A program made the position numbers and the translations under genes. The notes under the pieces are model-generated. The model was not told the DNA's origin. It did not search any database and saw only the letters and a program-made list of their open reading frames with translations. Of a stretch of DNA of 64,000 bases, positions 17,342-60,192 are shown piece after piece. This DNA comes from Candidatus Liminaster caballi (GTDB lineage: Bacteria; Bacteroidota; Bacteroidia; Bacteroidales; UBA3663). Every line of letters begins with the position of its first letter. Positions within the stretch are counted from its first letter, which is position 1. The stretch covers positions 62,001 to 126,000 of the forward strand of contig JAGHUA010000003.1 of NCBI GenBank assembly GCA_018065085.1, written 5' to 3'.

Positions 17342-20300
17342 ATGAAGCGACTTGATCTCGTTCTCCTGTCAATGGCCCTTGGAGGCCTGTCGAGCGTTGC
17401 TGCGTCCGATGTTCATCATCTGCGAGGCGTAGCCGTTGCCCAGCGTGCTGAGGGTGGAGTGGTATTCACTTCTGCCGACGCTTCCAATCCGCGCGTGCTG
17501 GGCTATACCGATAGCGGCACTCTCGACCTTGATGACCTTCCACTTGCGCTCACAGCATGGCTCGATGAGATTACCGCCTGTGGAGCCGCTGACATCCCAC
17601 AGGCTCCGGGCAGTGTCGATCAGCTCCTTGGCGATATTGCCTGGACTCAGGATCAGCCCATGAACGACCTTTGTCCGCGCTACTCATACCTTGGCTACGA
17701 CTATCCCACCTATGCAGGTTGTGTTGCCGTGGCGCTTGGTCAAATAATGTGCTATCACGGCTATCCCGATCATGCCACGGGCAACATCTCCTACACGACC
17801 GATACCTACGACCTTCCGGTCGCTTCCAACCTTGGGTCGCACACCTACGACTGGAATCGGATCCTTCCGAACTATATCTATACGAGTGCCACTGCCGAAC
17901 AGCGAGCCGAGGTAGCCCGTCTGGTCTTTGACGTGGCTGCGGCATGCTATACCGATTTTTCGCCGGCAGGCAGCACGTCTGAGGATTACCGTGCGGCAAA
18001 GGCGTTGAAGACCAATTTCGGCTACGATCCGTCGTTGCGCCTTGTCGATCATGCCGACTACACCACAGCCGAATGGGCAGCGCTGATACGCAGCGAGATT
18101 GATGCCCGCCGACCTGTCTATGTGAGTGGCATCAACGTCCGTGGCGACGGTTCTGCCGCTGGCCATGCGTTTGTGATCGATGGCTATAATGCCGATGGCT
18201 ATTTCCATGTCAACTGGGGTTGGAACGGCACGAGCAACGGCTATTATCTGCTCACAGACCTTACTCCGCGCGACAGTCAGGGCATCGGAGGTTCTGCCGC
18301 AGGCTATGCGTTCATGCAGAACGCCATCGTTGGCATCCAGCCCGATTGCGGAGGTGTCGAGACTCCAGCCACACTAACCCTCCACTATGACCAGATCTGG
18401 ACCGAGACCGATGAGGCGGGACTTGCCATCCACTTCCAGATATGCAATCGTTCTGCTACGGATTTCAAAGGATACATAGCACTCCGCATCACCGATCCTG
18501 ACGGTCTTGTGCTCAACGATCCGATGGCAACAGCCTTGCATACGCAATGCAAGTCTGGTGCAGGCGGCGAACGTGCATGGTACGTCGATCTGGCATCTTT
18601 GGGCAATCGTCCTGACCTTCGATTCGATATTGTCTATCAACGCGAGGGCGAGGAAGAGTGGCTTGTGGCAGGTTCGCGCTTGGGCAGTCCTCACAGCCTT
18701 TTGAGCTACGTGACCGCAGGTGGCAGCATAGCCCTGCATACTGATCCAGAACAGATGTTCCAGCTCCGACTGGCCGATCTTCATGCCACGTCAGCGTTGA
18801 AGGCAGGCTCTGTCGCCACGTTCACCGCCACAGTTCGCAACCTCTCTCCGTACGAGTATTTTGCGCCTCTCTACCTCATGGTCTATAATCCTGAGGGCAC
18901 GGCTCTTGTCGGTTATACTGACTATCAGCTCAACCTCGTGCCGTCAATGGGCGAGGCCGAGGTGCAGTTCACCTACCGTCTTCCTTCCGACGAGGGTCGC
19001 TATCATTTCTGTGTTGCCTATGAGACGCTTGGCTACAACTATGACTATACGCCCATGCTACTTTCTGACCGCGAGGCCTATGACTATGTATTCCTGGTCG
19101 AGAGCAATCCTTCAGACGGAGGCGGCGATGATCCTGACACGGGTGGCGGCGACACTGGAAACCAGCCGCAGCAGGGCGTCGAACTGAGCTATGTGATGGA
19201 GTGTATCGACTACGGTTTTGATGCTGTCCGTCGCGACGTGAAAGTGCGTTTCGAGGGCAGTGATGTCTATATTCAGGGCATCAGCGCTGAGGTTCCGACA
19301 GCTTGGGCTCATGCCGTGATCAGCGATGGTGTGGCAGTGTTCGATGCTCCGCAGCTCCTTGGACAGTGGACTTACAATCTGCATAGCCAGAACCAGTACC
19401 TCACCGGCGCCGATACCAATACGGGCGATGTCAGTGGATTGGCAATGGCCTACGATCCGCAGACCCACAGCTTCATGGCATATTCCAACAACTGGATTCT
19501 GCTCACCTCTACGCCTGATATGATTGGCTACTATTATGACCATCTCTATCAGGGTGTCACCATTCTTCCGCAGAGCCAGGCGGGCGATGATCCGAGTGTC
19601 ACGCCGCCTGCCGGACTCACCACCGTTGCCTATCTCCTCAGCGGACGCAATCCATTCACCCATATCCCTTCTGACTTCACCCTTCAGGTCGGTTTTTCGG
19701 GCGATGAGGTCTATGTTCAGGGTCTTTATCCAGCCTTGCCAAAGTCTTGGGTCAAAGGCACACTCAGCGGCTCGACCGTGACCTTCCAGTCGCCTCAGTA
19801 TGTGGGCAATTACCATGGCCTTTACAATATGTTCGTGGCTGGCTGGAATCCGCTTGCCGACACTCTCACACAGCTCGTGATGCATTTCGATACATCGTCG
19901 CGCACGTTCACGTCTGTTCCTGACTGCCAGTTCTTTGTGCAGGCTGGCGAGGGCGAACCGATGGCTATGATGCATCTCGATGGCATCACCATGCGTCCAT
20001 ATACAATGCCTGTCCCTGACTATGGCGAAGTGCAGCTGCCGTCGTTCCTCGAAGAGAACATCGAACAGTATGACCTCTCGGCCATCAACGTCGATGACAA
20101 CCATGCGGTTGCTTCTCAGGTCAGTGCCGTGGTGAGTGGCTATGACGTGTGGGTACGCGGCCTGTCGGCCTATTTCCCCGACGTATGGGTCAAGGGTCAC
20201 ATTGACGAGTGGGGCATCTGTGTCTTTGACCGCAATCAGCACATGGGCATGATGGGCGACTATCACATCTGGCTTGGCGGTGGCGATGTGACTTGCGGTG

Positions 20301-20581
20301 AGATTCTCTATGGCGATTTCATCCTCATCTATGACCGTGACAGCGGAGTGTTCACCCAGCCGGAGGTCAACTATCTTGCCATCAATGCCTCCACCACTGA
20401 TGTCTATCATCTTGAGCTCTACCGTGGCGTTGCGCTCACCCCTCATCAGTCGTCTGCCATCGAACAGACACGTCCTGCAAGCCTCGCCGACAGCCAGGCC
20501 TTCGACCTCTATGGCCGTCGCATCACAGGCCGCGTCCAGGGTGTTCAGGCTGTTGACCGACGTCTCATTATTAAACGATAA
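17342..20581 (+). CDS. C10 (streptopain-like) cysteine peptidase with three C-terminal repeat domains and a short C-terminal motif
   Basis: Catalytic YAGCVAVALGQIMCYHGYP and AGHAFVIDGYNADGYFHVNWGWNGTSNGYYLL; three copies of VYVQGL..P..WVKG-type modules; end FDLYGRRITGRVQGVQAVDRRLIIKR. Confidence 0.88.
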   Translation: MKRLDLVLLSMALGGLSSVAASDVHHLRGVAVAQRAEGGVVFTSADASNPRVLGYTDSGTLDLDDLPLALTAWLDEITACGAADIPQAPGSVDQLLGDIAWTQDQPMNDLCPRYSYLGYDYPTYAGCVAVALGQIMCYHGYPDHATGNISYTTDTYDLPVASNLGSHTYDWNRILPNYIYTSATAEQRAEVARLVFDVAAACYTDFSPAGSTSEDYRAAKALKTNFGYDPSLRLVDHADYTTAEWAALIRSEIDARRPVYVSGINVRGDGSAAGHAFVIDGYNADGYFHVNWGWNGTSNGYYLLTDLTPRDSQGIGGSAAGYAFMQNAIVGIQPDCGGVETPATLTLHYDQIWTETDEAGLAIHFQICNRSATDFKGYIALRITDPDGLVLNDPMATALHTQCKSGAGGERAWYVDLASLGNRPDLRFDIVYQREGEEEWLVAGSRLGSPHSLLSYVTAGGSIALHTDPEQMFQLRLADLHATSALKAGSVATFTATVRNLSPYEYFAPLYLMVYNPEGTALVGYTDYQLNLVPSMGEAEVQFTYRLPSDEGRYHFCVAYETLGYNYDYTPMLLSDREAYDYVFLVESNPSDGGGDDPDTGGGDTGNQPQQGVELSYVMECIDYGFDAVRRDVKVRFEGSDVYIQGISAEVPTAWAHAVISDGVAVFDAPQLLGQWTYNLHSQNQYLTGADTNTGDVSGLAMAYDPQTHSFMAYSNNWILLTSTPDMIGYYYDHLYQGVTILPQSQAGDDPSVTPPAGLTTVAYLLSGRNPFTHIPSDFTLQVGFSGDEVYVQGLYPALPKSWVKGTLSGSTVTFQSPQYVGNYHGLYNMFVAGWNPLADTLTQLVMHFDTSSRTFTSVPDCQFFVQAGEGEPMAMMHLDGITMRPYTMPVPDYGEVQLPSFLEENIEQYDLSAINVDDNHAVASQVSAVVSGYDVWVRGLSAYFPDVWVKGHIDEWGICVFDRNQHMGMMGDYHIWLGGGDVTCGEILYGDFILIYDRDSGVFTQPEVNYLAINASTTDVYHLELYRGVALTPHQSSAIEQTRPASLADSQAFDLYGRRITGRVQGVQAVDRRLIIKR

Positions 20582-21773: not shown

Positions 21774-23159
21774 ATGTACTATAGCAGAATCGTTGATGCG
21801 CATCTTTCAGAATGGGCGCAGCGGAAGACACATAAGCCATTGCTTCTAAGAGGTGCACGACAGATAGGAAAATCAACCGCGGTGAGGCATTTGGCAGAAC
21901 AGTTTGATGTCTATATTGAAATCAACTTCGAGAAACAGCCATCGTATAAAACATTGTTCGAAAAAGACCTTGATGTTAAGCGGATTGTTCCTCTCATCTC
22001 TGCCATATCGAAGACATCGATCATAGCAGGCAGGACTCTTCTGTTTCTTGACGAGATACAGGATTGTCCTCAAGCCATTATGGCACTGCGTTATTTTCAT
22101 GAGGATATGCCCGAACTTCATGTGATAGCCGCTGGTTCGCTTCTCGAATTTGCTCTTGACGAGTTGCCTACATTCGGTGTTGGGCGCATACATTCAATGT
22201 ATATGTATCCAATGACTTTCGATGAGTTTATGATGGCAAACGGTGAGCAGCTGCTTCTTGATATTCGTAATCAGGCCGATACTGGGAATCCGCTTGACGA
22301 TGTTGTCCACAATAGGCTCATTGAACACCTCCGCACTTATATGCTTGTCGGCGGTATGCCCGAAAGTGTGTCCCGATGGGTAGAAACGCATGACTATCTG
22401 CAATGTCAGGAGGTTCAGGATGATATACTGACGGGTTATGAAGATGACTTTCCTAAATATCGCAAGAAAGTTGATCCCGTACTGCTTCGACAGACTCTGC
22501 GAAGTGTGGCTGTGCAGGTCGCTAAGAAATTTGTCTGTGCTCAGGTCCCGGGCAACTATAAAGCTGCGGAAGTGAAGAAAGCGTTGGACATGCTCACCAA
22601 GGCAGGAATCATCATTCCTGTCACACACGCCAGTGCCAATGGTCTTCCTCTTGGCGATGAGTGCGACCAGAGTATCCGTAAGATGTTACTACTTGATACG
22701 GGTTTGATGCTTCGTCTTTTGAATATGACACTTGGCGATGTTTCTGACCTCACCACCCATATCCTTACTTCGACAGCAGCAGATCTGGTCAATAAAGGCT
22801 CTATAGCCGAAATGCTTGCTGGTCTTGAATATCTCCACTATCTTTCGCCCAACCTTCGCCATGAACAATATTACTGGGTTCGTCAGGCTAAGAATTCCGT
22901 GGCAGAGATTGATTATGTATTGCCATTGCAGTCACAAGTTGTGCCGATGGAGGTGAAAGCAGGTGTACAGGGAGGAATGAAAAGCCTTTGGGAGTTTATG
23001 CGCGAAAAGAAGCTCTCTCATGCCATACGCTGTTCGCTCGAAAACTTCAGTTCCTTCGATTATATAGATGAGAAAGCAGATGGTGTTGTCCGTCATGTTA
23101 GTATTTGTCCTCTATATGCAGTCTCACAGATGCCTCGTATTTGCAGTCAAGCACTTTAA
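21774..23159 (+). CDS. AAA family ATPase with DUF4143 C-terminal domain
   Basis: KPLLLRGARQIGKSTAVRHLAEQF (Walker A), TLLFLDEIQDCPQAIMALRYFHEDMPELHVIAAGSLLEF (Walker B/sensor), C-terminal YWVRQAKNSVAEIDYVLPLQSQVVPMEVKAG. Confidence 0.92.
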   Translation: MYYSRIVDAHLSEWAQRKTHKPLLLRGARQIGKSTAVRHLAEQFDVYIEINFEKQPSYKTLFEKDLDVKRIVPLISAISKTSIIAGRTLLFLDEIQDCPQAIMALRYFHEDMPELHVIAAGSLLEFALDELPTFGVGRIHSMYMYPMTFDEFMMANGEQLLLDIRNQADTGNPLDDVVHNRLIEHLRTYMLVGGMPESVSRWVETHDYLQCQEVQDDILTGYEDDFPKYRKKVDPVLLRQTLRSVAVQVAKKFVCAQVPGNYKAAEVKKALDMLTKAGIIIPVTHASANGLPLGDECDQSIRKMLLLDTGLMLRLLNMTLGDVSDLTTHILTSTAADLVNKGSIAEMLAGLEYLHYLSPNLRHEQYYWVRQAKNSVAEIDYVLPLQSQVVPMEVKAGVQGGMKSLWEFMREKKLSHAIRCSLENFSSFDYIDEKADGVVRHVSICPLYAVSQMPRICSQAL

Positions 23160-23293: not shown

Positions 23294-24095
23294 GACTTCC
23301 AAGTTTCTGGAAATGCTGGCAAAACTTTCGTTTGGATTTCCAGCTTTCTGGAAATGCTCGGAACAATGTTCTGACGACTTCCAAGGTTTTCGGAAATGCT
23401 GAGAACAATGTTCTGACGACTTCCAAGGTTTTAGCAAATGCTCGGAACAATGTGCTGGCGACTTCCAGCTTTCTGGAAATGCTGAGAACAATGTTCTGAC
23501 GACTTCCAGCTTTCTGGAAATGTTGGGAACAATGTGCTGACGATTTCCAAGGTTTTCGGAAATGCTGAGAACAATGTTCTGACGACTTCCAAGGTTTTCG
23601 GAAATGCTGGGAACAATGTGCTGGCGATTTCCAGCTTTCTGGAAATGCTGGGAACAATGTGCTGGCGACTTCCAAGGTTTTCGGAAATGCTCGGAACAAT
23701 GTTCTGACGACTTCCAGCTTTCTGGAAATGTTGGGAACAATGTGCTGGCGACTTCCAAGTTTCTGGAAATGCTGGCGAAACTTTGTTTAGGATTTCCCAA
23801 GAGTTAGGAAATGCTGGCGAAACTTTCGTTTGGATTTCCCGAGAGTTGGGAAATGCTGGCGAAACTTTGTTTAGGATTTCCCGAGAGTTGGGAAATGCTG
23901 GCAAAACTTTCGTTTGGACTTCCGAAGAGTTAGGAAATGCCAGCGAAACTTTCGTTTGGATTTCCCGAGAGTTAGGAAATGCCGGCGAAACTTTGTTTTG
24001 GATTTCCCGAGAGTTAGGAAATGCTGGCGAAAGTTTCGTTAGGACTTCCCAAGAGTTCGGAAATGCTGGCGGAAGTATAAAAAATGTTTTTTTAT
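23294..24095. repeat. Tandem array of ~19 contiguous 41/42-bp imperfect-palindrome units (array 1)
   Basis: Units begin GA(C/T)TTCC...GGAAATGCTG...; units 1-18 sum to 749 bp, placing unit 19 at 24043, which matches the sequence. Two sub-types: ...GAACAATGT(T/G)CTG and ...GCGAAACTTTCGTTTG. Confidence 0.95.
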
Positions 24096-24262: not shown

Positions 24263-24318
24263 GACTTCCCGAAAGCTGGGAAACGCCGGCGGAAGTATAA
24301 AAAATCTTTTTTTTATTT
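24263..24318. repeat. Solo copy of the 42-bp repeat with the same 3' tail as array 1's last unit
   Basis: GACTTCCCGAAAGCTGGGAAACGCCGGCGGAAGTATAAAAAATCTTTTTTTT versus last unit GACTTCCCAAGAGTTCGGAAATGCTGGCGGAAGTATAAAAAATGTTTTTTT. Confidence 0.9.
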
Positions 24319-24620: not shown

Positions 24621-27197
24621 ATGAGTTTTAAGAACTATATCCTCACTGCAGTTTTCGCAGCCCTGACAAGTTCAGTTTTCGCTCAGTATGTGCCCGTGGC
24701 TAATGCCGACAGCGCATGGCTGTTCACCTACTCAACGCTCAAGAATGCAGGCCGCAACGGATTGCATTTCGCATGGAGCATGGACAAGGTGAACTGGCAG
24801 GAAATCGGTCCTGAATGGGCTCCTGTCAAGTCGGATTACGGAGCATGGGGCGCTCAGAAGCGTATGCTCGATCCTGTGGTGTGGTTCGACTCGGAGTCGG
24901 GACTTTGGAAGGCTTCGTGGCACCTCAACGAGCAGGAACCGAATAAGGTGGCAATCACCGAGAGCCGCAACCTGTCGCTGTGGAAGCCTCAGGATTACGT
25001 CGGCGCATCGGAGGTGAAGAGTGCCATGCGCAATGTGGCTCCTGCTGAGACCATCGTTCTGCCATCGAGCGGCGAGGTGAAGGGGCAGGTGCACCGTGTG
25101 GCCTGGCCTTTGGTCAATGACCTGCTCAATGCCTTGCAGTTGCAGCGTCAGAAGGATCGCGACAATGCCGAGCGTGCAGCCGATGATGTGAAAGGCCGTT
25201 TCCGCGACCTCAAACCGCAGCAGATCAGCGTCACCGTATTGCCAGAGCATAGCAAGACGATAACAGACAAGCTTATCGGCATTTTCTTTGAGGATATCAA
25301 CTATGCGGCTGATGGCGGCCTCTATGCCGAGCTTATTCAGAACCGCGATTTCGAATACACCCCAGAACACATGCATGATGCCAGCAAGTGGCAGCCTACA
25401 TCATGGTGGGTGGCAGAAGGTCTCGATCTGAAGGTTAGCACGGATGATCCGTTGCACGTCAACAATCCTCACTATGCCGTGCTCAGCATCGACAATCCGC
25501 TGCTCGATCCTGCCACCAAGCGTCTGAAGTCAAAGCAGGCAGCCATGGGCATCTCGACACTCGAATATCATCCGACTCCGCAGCTCGCAAACCGTGGCTG
25601 GGAGGGAATTGCCGTCAAGGAAGGCGCCCGATATGATTTCAGCGTCTATGGCCGTGTGCCGGAGGGCAAAAGCGTGAAGGTGAAGGTGCAGTTGCAGTGC
25701 GGACAGAACGACAAGGTGATTGCCGAGAGCACAGTCACAATTGCCGGTGGCAAGTCGTGGAAGAAGGTGCAGGCAGTGCTGAAGGCTACGGCGTCGGCCA
25801 ATGATGCACGACTCGTGCTCCTGCCTCAGTCGAACGGCACCATGCACCTCGATATGGTAAGCCTTTTCCCACAGGACACATACAAGGGCAGGAAGAACGG
25901 TATGCGTCGCGACCTTGCCGAGGCCCTCGAAGCCCTGCATCCAAAGTTCGTGCGATTCCCAGGCGGCTGTGCAAGCCATGGCGACGGCCTTGACAATATG
26001 TACAGATGGAAGAATACGATCGGTCCGCTTGAGTCACGCAAGCCGAACTGGAACATCTGGCACTATCATCAGACGGTGGGCATTGGCTACTACGAGTATT
26101 TCCAGTTCTGCGAGGATCTCGGTGCCGAACCATTGCCAGTGCTTGCTGCCGGTGTGCCATGCCAGAACTCGTCAGCCGGCGGCAACGGTCAGCAGGGTGG
26201 AATCCCGATGGATCAGATGCCAGAATATGTGCAGGAGGTGCTTGACCTCATCGAATGGGCCAACGGCGACCCTAAGACCAGCGAGTGGGCACGTATGCGA
26301 GCCGAGGCAGGTCACCCAAAGCCATTCGGCCTGAAGATGATCGGCATCGGCAACGAAGATTTGATCAGCGATGTGTTCACCGAACGATATAAGATGATCT
26401 GTGAGGCAGTGGCCAAGCAGCACCCAGAGGTGGAGATTGTGGGAACGGTAGGCCCATTCTGCGAAGGTTCTGACTACGAGCGCGGCTGGGAACTGGCCCA
26501 TGAGATGAACCTCCCATACGTCGATGAGCACTACTACAACTCGCCCGGCTGGTTTATCAATAACCAGACGTTCTATGACCGCTATGCACGCCACATCACC
26601 GACAGCGAGGGCAACGTCAAGCCTGCCACACGTGTCTATCTCGGCGAGTATGCCAGTCATATCGGCAACCGCAGCAACTGTGTGGAAACTGCGTTGAGCG
26701 AGGCCCTGTATCTCTGCTCGGTGGAGCGCAATGCCGACATCGTGGCAATGACCAGCTACGCACCGTTGCTGGCCAAGAAGGGTCACACACAGTGGAACCC
26801 AGACATGATCTACTTCACCAACACCACCGTCGAACCTACATCGGGCTATCAGGTGCAGAAGATGTTCGGCCAGAATGCCGGCACAAAGTACATCGCATCG
26901 ACCGTACGCCTCGAACACCCATCGGCAAACGTACAGAAGCGCGTGGGATGCAGTGTGGTGGTGGACGAAGCCAAAGATCAGCTGATCATTAAACTTGTGA
27001 ACTATCTTCCAGTCGAAAATACATACAGCGTAGCCCTGCCAGACGGATATACAACCGTAGTGGCAGCTCAGACGCTGACCGGCGAACTGGCCGACACCCA
27101 TGCCGTGCCTGCCGACTCGGAGGCAACAACCGCCGACGGCAAACTTCAGCTCACGATGCCTGCCTACAGCTTCACAGTAGTGAGAATCGGACGATAA
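24621..27197 (+). CDS. GH51 alpha-L-arabinofuranosidase with an N-terminal partial GH43-like segment
   Basis: LIGIFFEDINYAADGGLYAELIQNRDFEY, FPGGCASHGDGLDNMYRWKNTIGP, GIGNEDLISDVFTERY (acid/base), VYLGEYASH (nucleophile). Confidence 0.93.
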   Translation: MSFKNYILTAVFAALTSSVFAQYVPVANADSAWLFTYSTLKNAGRNGLHFAWSMDKVNWQEIGPEWAPVKSDYGAWGAQKRMLDPVVWFDSESGLWKASWHLNEQEPNKVAITESRNLSLWKPQDYVGASEVKSAMRNVAPAETIVLPSSGEVKGQVHRVAWPLVNDLLNALQLQRQKDRDNAERAADDVKGRFRDLKPQQISVTVLPEHSKTITDKLIGIFFEDINYAADGGLYAELIQNRDFEYTPEHMHDASKWQPTSWWVAEGLDLKVSTDDPLHVNNPHYAVLSIDNPLLDPATKRLKSKQAAMGISTLEYHPTPQLANRGWEGIAVKEGARYDFSVYGRVPEGKSVKVKVQLQCGQNDKVIAESTVTIAGGKSWKKVQAVLKATASANDARLVLLPQSNGTMHLDMVSLFPQDTYKGRKNGMRRDLAEALEALHPKFVRFPGGCASHGDGLDNMYRWKNTIGPLESRKPNWNIWHYHQTVGIGYYEYFQFCEDLGAEPLPVLAAGVPCQNSSAGGNGQQGGIPMDQMPEYVQEVLDLIEWANGDPKTSEWARMRAEAGHPKPFGLKMIGIGNEDLISDVFTERYKMICEAVAKQHPEVEIVGTVGPFCEGSDYERGWELAHEMNLPYVDEHYYNSPGWFINNQTFYDRYARHITDSEGNVKPATRVYLGEYASHIGNRSNCVETALSEALYLCSVERNADIVAMTSYAPLLAKKGHTQWNPDMIYFTNTTVEPTSGYQVQKMFGQNAGTKYIASTVRLEHPSANVQKRVGCSVVVDEAKDQLIIKLVNYLPVENTYSVALPDGYTTVVAAQTLTGELADTHAVPADSEATTADGKLQLTMPAYSFTVVRIGR

Positions 27198-42382: not shown

Positions 42383-42675
42383 TTTTCGTTAGGACTTCCC
42401 AATAGTTCGGAAATGCCGGAGAAAGTTTCGTTTGGACTTCCCAAGTCTTCGGAAGTGCTGGCGAAAGTTTCATTTGGACTTCCCAATAGTTCGGAAATGC
42501 TGGCGAAAGTTCTGTTTGGATTTCCCAATTTTTCGGAAGTGCTGGCGGAAGTTTTGTTTGGACTCACAACTCTTCGGAAATGCTGGCGAAAGTTTCATTT
42601 AGACTTCCCAATAGTTCGGAAACGCCAGAAAAACTTTCGTTGGCATTTCCCAAAACTTGGCAAATGCTTTTTGTT
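42383..42675. repeat. Array 2 of the 42-bp repeat (~6 full plus partial units)
   Basis: Units starting at 42393, 42435, 42477, 42519, 42561, 42603, 42645(partial); consensus GACTTCCCAATAGTTCGGAAATGCTGGCGAAAGTTTCGTTTG. Confidence 0.93.
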
Positions 42676-42828: not shown

Positions 42829-43896
42829 ATGAGCGAATCAAAAACTCCGTTATATATGACAATTGAAGTAGTTACAAATCAGATGGCAATTAATAACGAG
42901 ATTGCAGTTTTAGGCGGACTTAAAGAATACCTGTCATATAAAGAGGCAGACAAAGAAAATCGTTTCTTTGTTGCTGGTGATAATATGTTCACTCGTAAGG
43001 CAAGACTTTTGCAGTCTATAAGAAGATGGCAGACTGGAGCAAAAGAAGGTTTTAGAGAATACAAAGGTGAGAAAACCTACCATGGTAATCTTGCAGAGAA
43101 TGCACATGAGACAGGGGTAAATTTCCTTCATCACGAAATCTTTGATTATGTTAAAAAACGTATTTCTGAAAAGAAACCTTATGAGACAATAGAAGAAAAT
43201 CGTATGATGAACAATTTTCTTTCAAGTCAACCTATGGCTTTCAATTTGTTCTATCCTTTGATGCAAATTGTTGAATGTGAGGATGGACAATCTAAACTGG
43301 CAAATGTTGTCAATACGTTATTGCACGATTCTGTTAAAATAGAAAAAGTAATAAAAGTCGGACTTGAATTTATTCCATCATATTATAAGCAATGTCTTAA
43401 CGATAAGACCGCAATGGATGCTTTCTTCCGTTTCGTTACCAAAGATGGCAAAACAGGCATTATAGCCATTGAAACAAAATACACCGATGTCCTTGGGCAA
43501 AATGAAGCGAGAAATCCTCTTCATGCAAGAGAAGCAACGCAGCGAGAAGGGATCAAACAACTATTTCATGAAGATGCACTTGAAGAAATCAAATTGGGCA
43601 AAACCCAATTAAATCAGGTATATCGCAACTTTCTTTTGACTGAGTGTGTTCGTATTCAAGAGAATCTGGATTATTCGCTTTCTATTGTCCTCGCACCTCA
43701 AGATAATGTCAGCAATAAGGAAGACGAGACGAAACTGATTAATATTTTGAAGGATGAATATAAATACAAATTTCAAGTATTTACTCTTGAAAATTTTGTC
43801 GAAGTTCTTATTGCAGAATTTCCGGAAGAAAGTATCTTCAAACGTTTTCGTCATCGCTATCTCGATTTCCGTACAGCTGAATACTTATTGCGCTGA
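42829..43896 (+). CDS. PGN_0703-family putative restriction endonuclease (PD-(D/E)XK-like)
   Basis: AENAHETGVNFLHHEIFDYVKKRI, KDGKTGIIAIETKYTDVLGQNEARNP (ExK), AT-rich orphan gene. Confidence 0.7.
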   Translation: MSESKTPLYMTIEVVTNQMAINNEIAVLGGLKEYLSYKEADKENRFFVAGDNMFTRKARLLQSIRRWQTGAKEGFREYKGEKTYHGNLAENAHETGVNFLHHEIFDYVKKRISEKKPYETIEENRMMNNFLSSQPMAFNLFYPLMQIVECEDGQSKLANVVNTLLHDSVKIEKVIKVGLEFIPSYYKQCLNDKTAMDAFFRFVTKDGKTGIIAIETKYTDVLGQNEARNPLHAREATQREGIKQLFHEDALEEIKLGKTQLNQVYRNFLLTECVRIQENLDYSLSIVLAPQDNVSNKEDETKLINILKDEYKYKFQVFTLENFVEVLIAEFPEESIFKRFRHRYLDFRTAEYLLR

Positions 43897-58857: not shown

Positions 58858-60192
58858 ATGAAGAAAATAATTCTTTTGCTTTGTGCTTTATGCGGCACTG
58901 CTATTGCCAGCGCCAGTGATGTTGAAGTAGATGGAATCTGGTATGACTTTAACACTTCCGCCCGAATTGCTTCTGTCACCTATCGCGGCAGTGGTTATGA
59001 CAGTTATTCTGATGAGTATTCTGGAAATGTGATCATTCCTTCTTCCGTTACCTATGACGGAGAAATCTATTCCGTGACCAGCATCGGAGAATGTGCATTT
59101 GCTTATTGTAGCAGCTTGACCTCTGTCACGATTGGCAGCTCTGTTACTGACATCGAAGGTTCTGCGTTCCATGGCTGCAGCGGCTTGATATCTGTCACAA
59201 TTGGCAGCTCGGTTACAAGCATCGGATTTGGTGCATTCTATGACTGTAGCGGCCTGACTTATGTTTCTATTGGCAACTCTGTGACCCACATCGGAACTCT
59301 CGCGTTCTATGGCTGCAGCAGCCTGACTTCAATCTCTATTCCAAACTCGGTGACAAGCATCGGTGCCCAAGCGTTTTTCGCCTGTAGCGGTCTGACTTCT
59401 GTTTCTATTGGCAACTCAGTGACCTGCATCGACTTCTGGGCGTTCTATGATTGTAGCAGCCTGACTTCTGTCACAATTGGCAGCTCTGTTACTAGCATTG
59501 GATACTGTGCGTTCTTCAATTGTAGTAGCCTTACTTCTGTCAACATCCCAAACTCTGTTACTAGCATTGGTAGCTCTGCGTTCTATAATTGTAGCAGCCT
59601 GACTTCTGTCACTATTCCAAACTCGGTGGCAAGCATCGGAACTGAGGCATTCCGATATTGCAGTAGTCTGACTTCTGTCACTGTTCCAAACTCAGTGACA
59701 AGCATTGAATCGTCAGTGTTCTCCGACTGTAGCAGCCTGACTTCTATAAGTATTCCAAATTCGGTTACAAGCATCGGAGCCTTTGCTTTTTATGGCTGCA
59801 ACAGCCTGACTTCTGTCATTATCCCAGACTCGGTGATTAGCATCGGATATTATGCGTTCTTTGGCTGCAAAAATATAAACAAAGTGGTCTCAATGAACTC
59901 GACACCTCCAGATATTGATGATTCTGTGTTTTGGGGTATTGATTATGCAAACTGCGAACTCATTGTTCCTGCTGATGCTGTCGCTGAATATAGCCATCAT
60001 GCTTATTGGGGAATGTTCAAGAACCTTAAGGGCGAAGACGATATGAGTCAGAATGAAACAGATGGTATCGACCTGCAGAAATTTTTAGAGGATGAGAAGA
60101 ACGTAATGTTCGATATGACAGGACGTCGCATCAACCAGATTCCGCAGAATGGATTCTACATTCGCGGCGGAAAGAAGAAAACAAGGTTGTAA
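58858..60192 (+). CDS. BspA-like leucine-rich repeat (LRR_5) exported protein
   Basis: Signal peptide; >=11 tandem copies of ~23-aa IPNSVTSIGxxAFYxCSSLTSVT; C-terminus MFDMTGRRINQIPQNGFYIRGGKKKTRL. Confidence 0.93.
   Translation: MKKIILLLCALCGTAIASASDVEVDGIWYDFNTSARIASVTYRGSGYDSYSDEYSGNVIIPSSVTYDGEIYSVTSIGECAFAYCSSLTSVTIGSSVTDIEGSAFHGCSGLISVTIGSSVTSIGFGAFYDCSGLTYVSIGNSVTHIGTLAFYGCSSLTSISIPNSVTSIGAQAFFACSGLTSVSIGNSVTCIDFWAFYDCSSLTSVTIGSSVTSIGYCAFFNCSSLTSVNIPNSVTSIGSSAFYNCSSLTSVTIPNSVASIGTEAFRYCSSLTSVTVPNSVTSIESSVFSDCSSLTSISIPNSVTSIGAFAFYGCNSLTSVIIPDSVISIGYYAFFGCKNINKVVSMNSTPPDIDDSVFWGIDYANCELIVPADAVAEYSHHAYWGMFKNLKGEDDMSQNETDGIDLQKFLEDEKNVMFDMTGRRINQIPQNGFYIRGGKKKTRL

Follow-up and report, generated by a model that had tools for sequence, protein, structure and literature searches.

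The BOX elements of Streptococcus pneumoniae, which have the module order boxA-boxB(n)-boxC, are thought to be non-autonomous and parasitic (PMC3049150). They are dispersed, intergenic and modular: a tandem array of variable length, built of ~45-bp modules, sits between fixed ends. They are enriched between convergent genes (PMC3049150). Porphyromonas gingivalis contains BrickBuilt and MITE464/PgRS, in which a spacer-free minisatellite (period 23 nt in BrickBuilt, 41 nt in PgRS) sits in a dispersed intergenic element with a leader and a tail (PMC4596501). BrickBuilt/MITE464 have terminal inverted repeats matching IS5-family elements, and target-site duplications (TSDs) accompany some copies; the BrickBuilt/PgRS unit sequences are reported to be unique to P. 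gingivalis, and no two-block A/B order has been reported for them (PMC4596501). The nearest known kind to the repeat family described here is this one, MITE-like and modular with a minisatellite inside; the family would work like BOX or BrickBuilt without necessarily being a member of either.

The window, a stretch of 64,000 nucleotides from the uncultured gut bacterium Candidatus Liminaster caballi, contains two arrays of this family. Array 1 (23294-24084, + strand) lies between an AAA_14/DUF4143 ATPase gene on its 5' flank (21774-23159, +) and a BT_3657-like alpha-L-arabinofuranosidase gene on its 3' flank (24621-27197, +). As stated in the original prediction, it is intergenic and has ~19 contiguous 41/42-bp units from 23294 without spacers; direct reading and TRF agree on 19 units, seven of 41 bp, eleven of 42 bp and a diverged, truncated 19th, which places the end at ~24084 instead of 24095. 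The two predicted dyads per unit, both subtypes and the example units are all present: TTCC..GGAA, plus either GAAAsTTTC or GAACAATGTTC. TRF found zero arrays in shuffled sequence. The window has no tRNA and 0 matches to Rfam 15 at gathering score, in keeping with the earlier view that no described family fits. A CRISPR array was rejected since the units are contiguous and spacer-free, and a coding repeat since the mixture of 41- and 42-bp units breaks the reading frame.

Array 1 ends in a locus-specific motif, GGCGGAAGTATAAAAAAT (24068-24085, +), that recurs only at 24288-24305. There it closes a lone A-type unit (24263-24305, +; the unit itself spans 24263-24298), which is a partial duplicate of the array 1 end. 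Array 2 (42384-42668, +) consists of A units only, six full ones plus partial ends, and is flanked by a PNP_UDP_1 gene and a PDDEXK_13 nuclease gene. The latter, of the PDDEXK_13/REase-ARP type, follows the array immediately (42829-43896). Elsewhere in the window a 69-bp tandem repeat (59107-59847) lies within the ORF at 58858-60192, probably a leucine-rich-repeat surface protein, and the protein encoded at 17342-20581 (1079 aa) combines a Peptidase_C10 domain with a Spi protease inhibitor prodomain.

Array 1 is real, but the repeat is not confined to one locus: array 1 is one of ~60 dispersed arrays in the genome, which together comprise 482 units of two main types and cover 19.6 kb or more of the 2.94 Mb (0.67%). 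Many of the arrays are located at contig ends of the source assembly, so the repeats have probably broken the assembly and the actual total could be higher. Type A, GGACTTCCCAAGTCTTAGGAAATGCTGGCGAAAGTTTCATTT, is exactly 42 bp in 239 of 246 units. Type B, with the dyad GAACAATGTTC, comes in two lengths (87 units of 41 bp, 80 of 42 bp). Arrays range from 1 to 19 units. Where both types occur, the order A+B+ is strict in 35 of 36 arrays, which under random order has a chance of ~1e-66; the sole exception is array 1. In most arrays the B block is followed by a conserved tail, ..CTCAGAACCGATTTTTTGGTCTTCCGAAGTCTTAGGAAGAGGTTTTGCTT, whose terminus is GGTTTTGCTT, and matches to the full-length tail pattern occur only at arrays. 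The array ends are CTTTCRTTTG on the left and GGTTTTGCTT on the right. The first B unit nearly always has the 41-bp TTCCAGSTTTCTGGAA form, and first B units are position-specific, with 0.878 identity between arrays as against 0.824 for random B units. Each unit is near its own reverse complement, with a dyad every ~20.5-21 bp, or two turns of B-DNA.

Further repeats adjoin some of these arrays. A third unit type, a CTAACC/GGTTAG dyad around a TTCCCAACTCTTAGG stem, is joined after A units at two loci (L004:2320-2530 and L048:20-330). After the tail, the right flanks of six arrays (L007, L016, L017, L019, L030 and L037) share an extra module with another tandem repeat (~80 bp, CTCGTGAAGT...ACTTCACGAG), often cut by a contig end. 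On the left, four arrays (L001, L024, L034 and L056) adjoin another repeat with the dyad CGACCTGTACGG/CCGTACAGGTCG.

Array 1 departs from the family plan in having the unit order A B10 A8 and no usual tail. Its first unit (23294-23334, +) is a B-like stem 1 fused to an A-type second half. The B block (23335-23749, +) comprises 10 units with the GAACAATGTKC dyad, 41 and 42 bp mixed, and the A block (23750-24084, +) 8 units with the GAAAsTTT dyad, the last truncated. The first unit of the A block, which is the twelfth of the array, is again a B/A hybrid, marking a recombination junction. Because the hybrid units at 23294 and 23750 are 37/41 identical to each other, array 1 is best read, from its sequence, as a recombinant composite of two elements.

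Could the arrays be plain minisatellites, produced by neutral slippage duplication at palindromes and scattered by chance recombination, with neither element nor function behind them? The variable copy number, the absence of TSDs and the greater likeness of A units within arrays (0.860 identity) than between them (0.803) are what such a process would leave. Ordered A+B+ blocks with a common tail at unlinked loci are, however, impossible by local slippage, and the clustering of periods across unrelated families, described below, is a second difficulty. This account, already disfavoured, is very unlikely. The identity pattern of the A and B units is that of an ancestral order plus local amplification. 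Among the outcomes named beforehand as counting against the original prediction was a repeat found only here, with random substitution and without covariation. The family is indeed confined to this genome and shows no net covariation, but the A-then-B-then-tail order in ~60 dispersed copies shows it to be a real modular element rather than random repeats. The family is a real, new and species-restricted one.

With BOX the family shares dispersed intergenic loci, fixed end modules and variable tandem internal modules. It differs in having two ordered tandem blocks where BOX has one, in lacking a clear terminal inverted repeat or an evident matching IS, and in belonging to another phylum; no boxA, boxB or boxC sequence is known in it, the likeness being one of architecture. 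BrickBuilt and PgRS come from the same order as the host, are likewise species-restricted, and PgRS has the same 41-nt period. In contrast to them, the array ends do not match the IS5-like ends of BrickBuilt / MITE464-PgRS (GAGACC.../GAGACTGTTGCA) and there is no TSD signal: in 34 arrays the longest shared flank word averaged 5.29, against 5.13 +/- 0.16 for shuffled pairing. Transposition with TSDs was accordingly rejected; TTATCGTAA, which stands on both sides of array 1, and the 11-bp word at L027 are isolated cases. The tail end GGTTTTGCTT recurs in inverse form, AAGCAAAACC, at a few left ends (L025, L009 and L043) but not at most of them, and no consistent terminal inverted repeat was found across array ends. 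The two-block build, A then B, is new among BOX/BrickBuilt-like elements.

REP/BIME repeats with RAYT are also palindromic, extragenic, clustered and found between convergent genes. The family here differs in its long regular tandem arrays with blocks and a tail. No Y1 (TnpA-REP) transposase was found over cut-off in the source genome, which is 89% complete (one sub-threshold match, 20.4 bits vs 23), and REP/RAYT was rejected, as the original prediction had already concluded. Some insertion sequences insert into REP/BIME palindromes, and the arrays recall this pattern. The assembly contains 3 copies of an IS3-family element, composed of OrfA and a 265-aa integrase-like protein, and each copy sits either at an array or within one (L002:2521-4150, and the array ends L011, L042, L013 and L047); with a target of 0.67% of the genome, three of three has a chance of ~3e-7. 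The arrays look like preferred targets of this element, and the element is therefore a user of the arrays and not an evident mobiliser. Dispersal itself is shown by the shared ordered structure at ~60 loci. Mobility, through a putative enzyme, we infer, because no autonomous parent was found and the intergenic DNA of congeners is unalignable and offers no empty site.

The arrays occupy a definite genomic niche. With flanking-gene orientation called by a simple codon-based gene caller, 19 of 34 scorable arrays lie between convergent genes and 1 between divergent genes; among 45 intergenic regions without arrays the corresponding counts are 4 (p=9e-6 for the convergent class) and 12. In tandem-gene contexts the array orientation is 8:6, without strand preference. 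The arrays thus shun promoters and are indifferent to strand. A strand- or gene-oriented role was rejected, since an apparent same-strand bias of the upstream gene is a by-product of convergent contexts.

Changes between unit subtypes had been said often to keep the pairing, which suggested selection on a hairpin. This failed on the larger set. Among 230 distinct A units there was no net Watson-Crick excess and no enrichment of compensatory changes; the sole strongly variable stem-1 pair (columns 9-17) was Watson-Crick in 47 units where 68 were expected, and the other stem positions had isolated double changes only, near-invariant pairs being uninformative. On both strands the arrays fold far better than shuffles (z of -5.2, -5.6, -5.7 and -6.8). 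Such extreme two-strand folding arises because tandem quasi-palindromes fold so automatically, and selection on a hairpin or RNA, as judged by covariation, was rejected. These data bear on the proposal that the arrays are 3'-UTR RNA elements, transcribed from the flanking genes, whose hairpin chains stop transcription or protect mRNA ends. The folding scores, and array starts that are often 15-150 bp from a stop codon, are compatible with it, but the scores are those that any tandem quasi-palindrome would give, pair 9-17 anti-covaries, the tandem contexts show no strand preference, and some arrays come only after what looks like a terminator hairpin (in the left flanks of L008, L020 and L050). 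We regard an RNA element as quite unlikely. In 239 A units the dyad-core positions have 2.1 variants per site, compared with 47.9 elsewhere. Because the cores are nearly invariant without compensatory changes, the dyads would be DNA-level sites rather than an RNA fold. Gene conversion among copies could be a partial contributor to the invariance.

On balance we consider it probable that the family is a non-autonomous, BOX-like modular intergenic element whose dyads are DNA-level protein sites. The element would run from a left end within an A unit through the A block and the B block to a usually fixed tail ending in GGTTTTGCTT, and would have spread through the lineage by the putative enzyme. 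Arrays then grow or shrink locally by unequal exchange or slippage, as is shown by the closer likeness of A units belonging to one array and by array 1's hybrid junctions. The dyads are best taken as sites, on one face of the helix, that a dimeric protein would recognise; it could be a transposase working in trans or a DNA-binding protein of the chromosome. Convergent gene ends would tolerate insertions, and such tolerance would explain the location of the arrays without a host function.

The family sequence is restricted to one species. A sequence-only unit model had 275 matches at E<=0.001 in the source genome, whereas 14 further genomes of the genus had none; a degenerate unit pattern matched 0 of 85,488 GTDB species (the source genome excluded from the set) and no IMG/VR contig, and the array 1 sequence matched no plasmid or phage record. 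Spread by phage or plasmid was therefore rejected. The closest RNase R matches of the source genome, at 80-81% identity, are from uncultured rumen Bacteroidales MAGs. Distribution through related Prevotella/Bacteroidales, which the original prediction had raised, thus does not hold for the sequence, but arrays of the same architecture and other sequence are present there. The congeners, which lack the family sequence, yet have other 41/42-bp arrays. Of two such families, L177 (41 bp) is present in 5 and L193 (42 bp) in 6 of the 15 genomes of the genus, mostly with several loci in each genome; neither occurs in the source genome. They resemble the family here in period, quasi-palindromic units, multiple loci and 3'/convergent location: of 15 scorable arrays, 7 lie in convergent, 8 in tandem and none in divergent contexts. 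Some of their arrays alternate two 42-bp unit types; they differ in that no sequence similarity to the window's family was detected. Unrelated 41/42-bp quasi-palindromic arrays in congeners and Parabacteroides distasonis are at L177:8187-8626, L193:121-571, L179:3011-3231, L180:11421-11538, L254:12344-12636 and L100:5552-5852.

The periods of non-coding tandem repeats cluster as well, at 22-23 and 41-42 bp. In ~2.6 Mb of Bacteroidales samples, 33 of the 41 tandem repeats with a period not divisible by three (TRF) have a period of 22, 23 or 41 bp, for which a uniform null gives p 4e-26, a crude value since the families are not independent; the outside control was 50 kb of E. coli only, with no arrays there. 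Published Bacteroidales periods include 41 nt for PgRS and 23 nt for BrickBuilt (PMC4596501), and 23 bp for a non-coding VNTR of B. fragilis (PMC7585543). Of 14 independent ~41-bp consensus units, seven show quasi-palindromy along their entire length at p<0.05, where 0.7 are expected; such whole-unit quasi-palindromy places two dyads half a period apart. Spacing rather than sequence seems to be conserved across sister species. A selfish element alone leaves the common period, the quasi-palindromy and the niche of unrelated congener families unexplained.

These regularities would be accounted for by a host-maintained DNA lattice, in which the arrays bind a nucleoid-associated or topology protein; selection would preserve dyads and spacing, and the sequence would drift along with the protein. 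Such a lattice would work as gyrase-binding BIMEs do in convergent intergenic regions. The shared period of unrelated families, the quasi-palindromic units, the 3'/convergent niche of the congener arrays, the two-turn spacing and the invariant dyad cores all point this way. Against it, no binding protein was identified, a host function would not usually have its sequence replaced completely between close species, and simple tolerance would also lead to the convergent location, an argument made for BOX (PMC3049150). We hold a lattice to be unlikely. Similarly doubtful is a wider Bacteroidales system resembling satellite DNA, in which sequence would be fully replaced between sister species, but a period of 22-23 or 41-42 bp, a dyad roughly every second helical turn and the convergent/3' location would be kept through a rapidly co-evolving DNA-binding or transposition protein that polymerises on one face of the DNA.

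With this large two-block modular family, the short list formed by BOX and BrickBuilt/PgRS gains a member. The arrays disrupt short-read assemblies, and many contigs of the source genome terminate in them. When sequence is replaced and a property nonetheless persists, this points to some physical constraint, which may be a protein lattice or an amplification enzyme.
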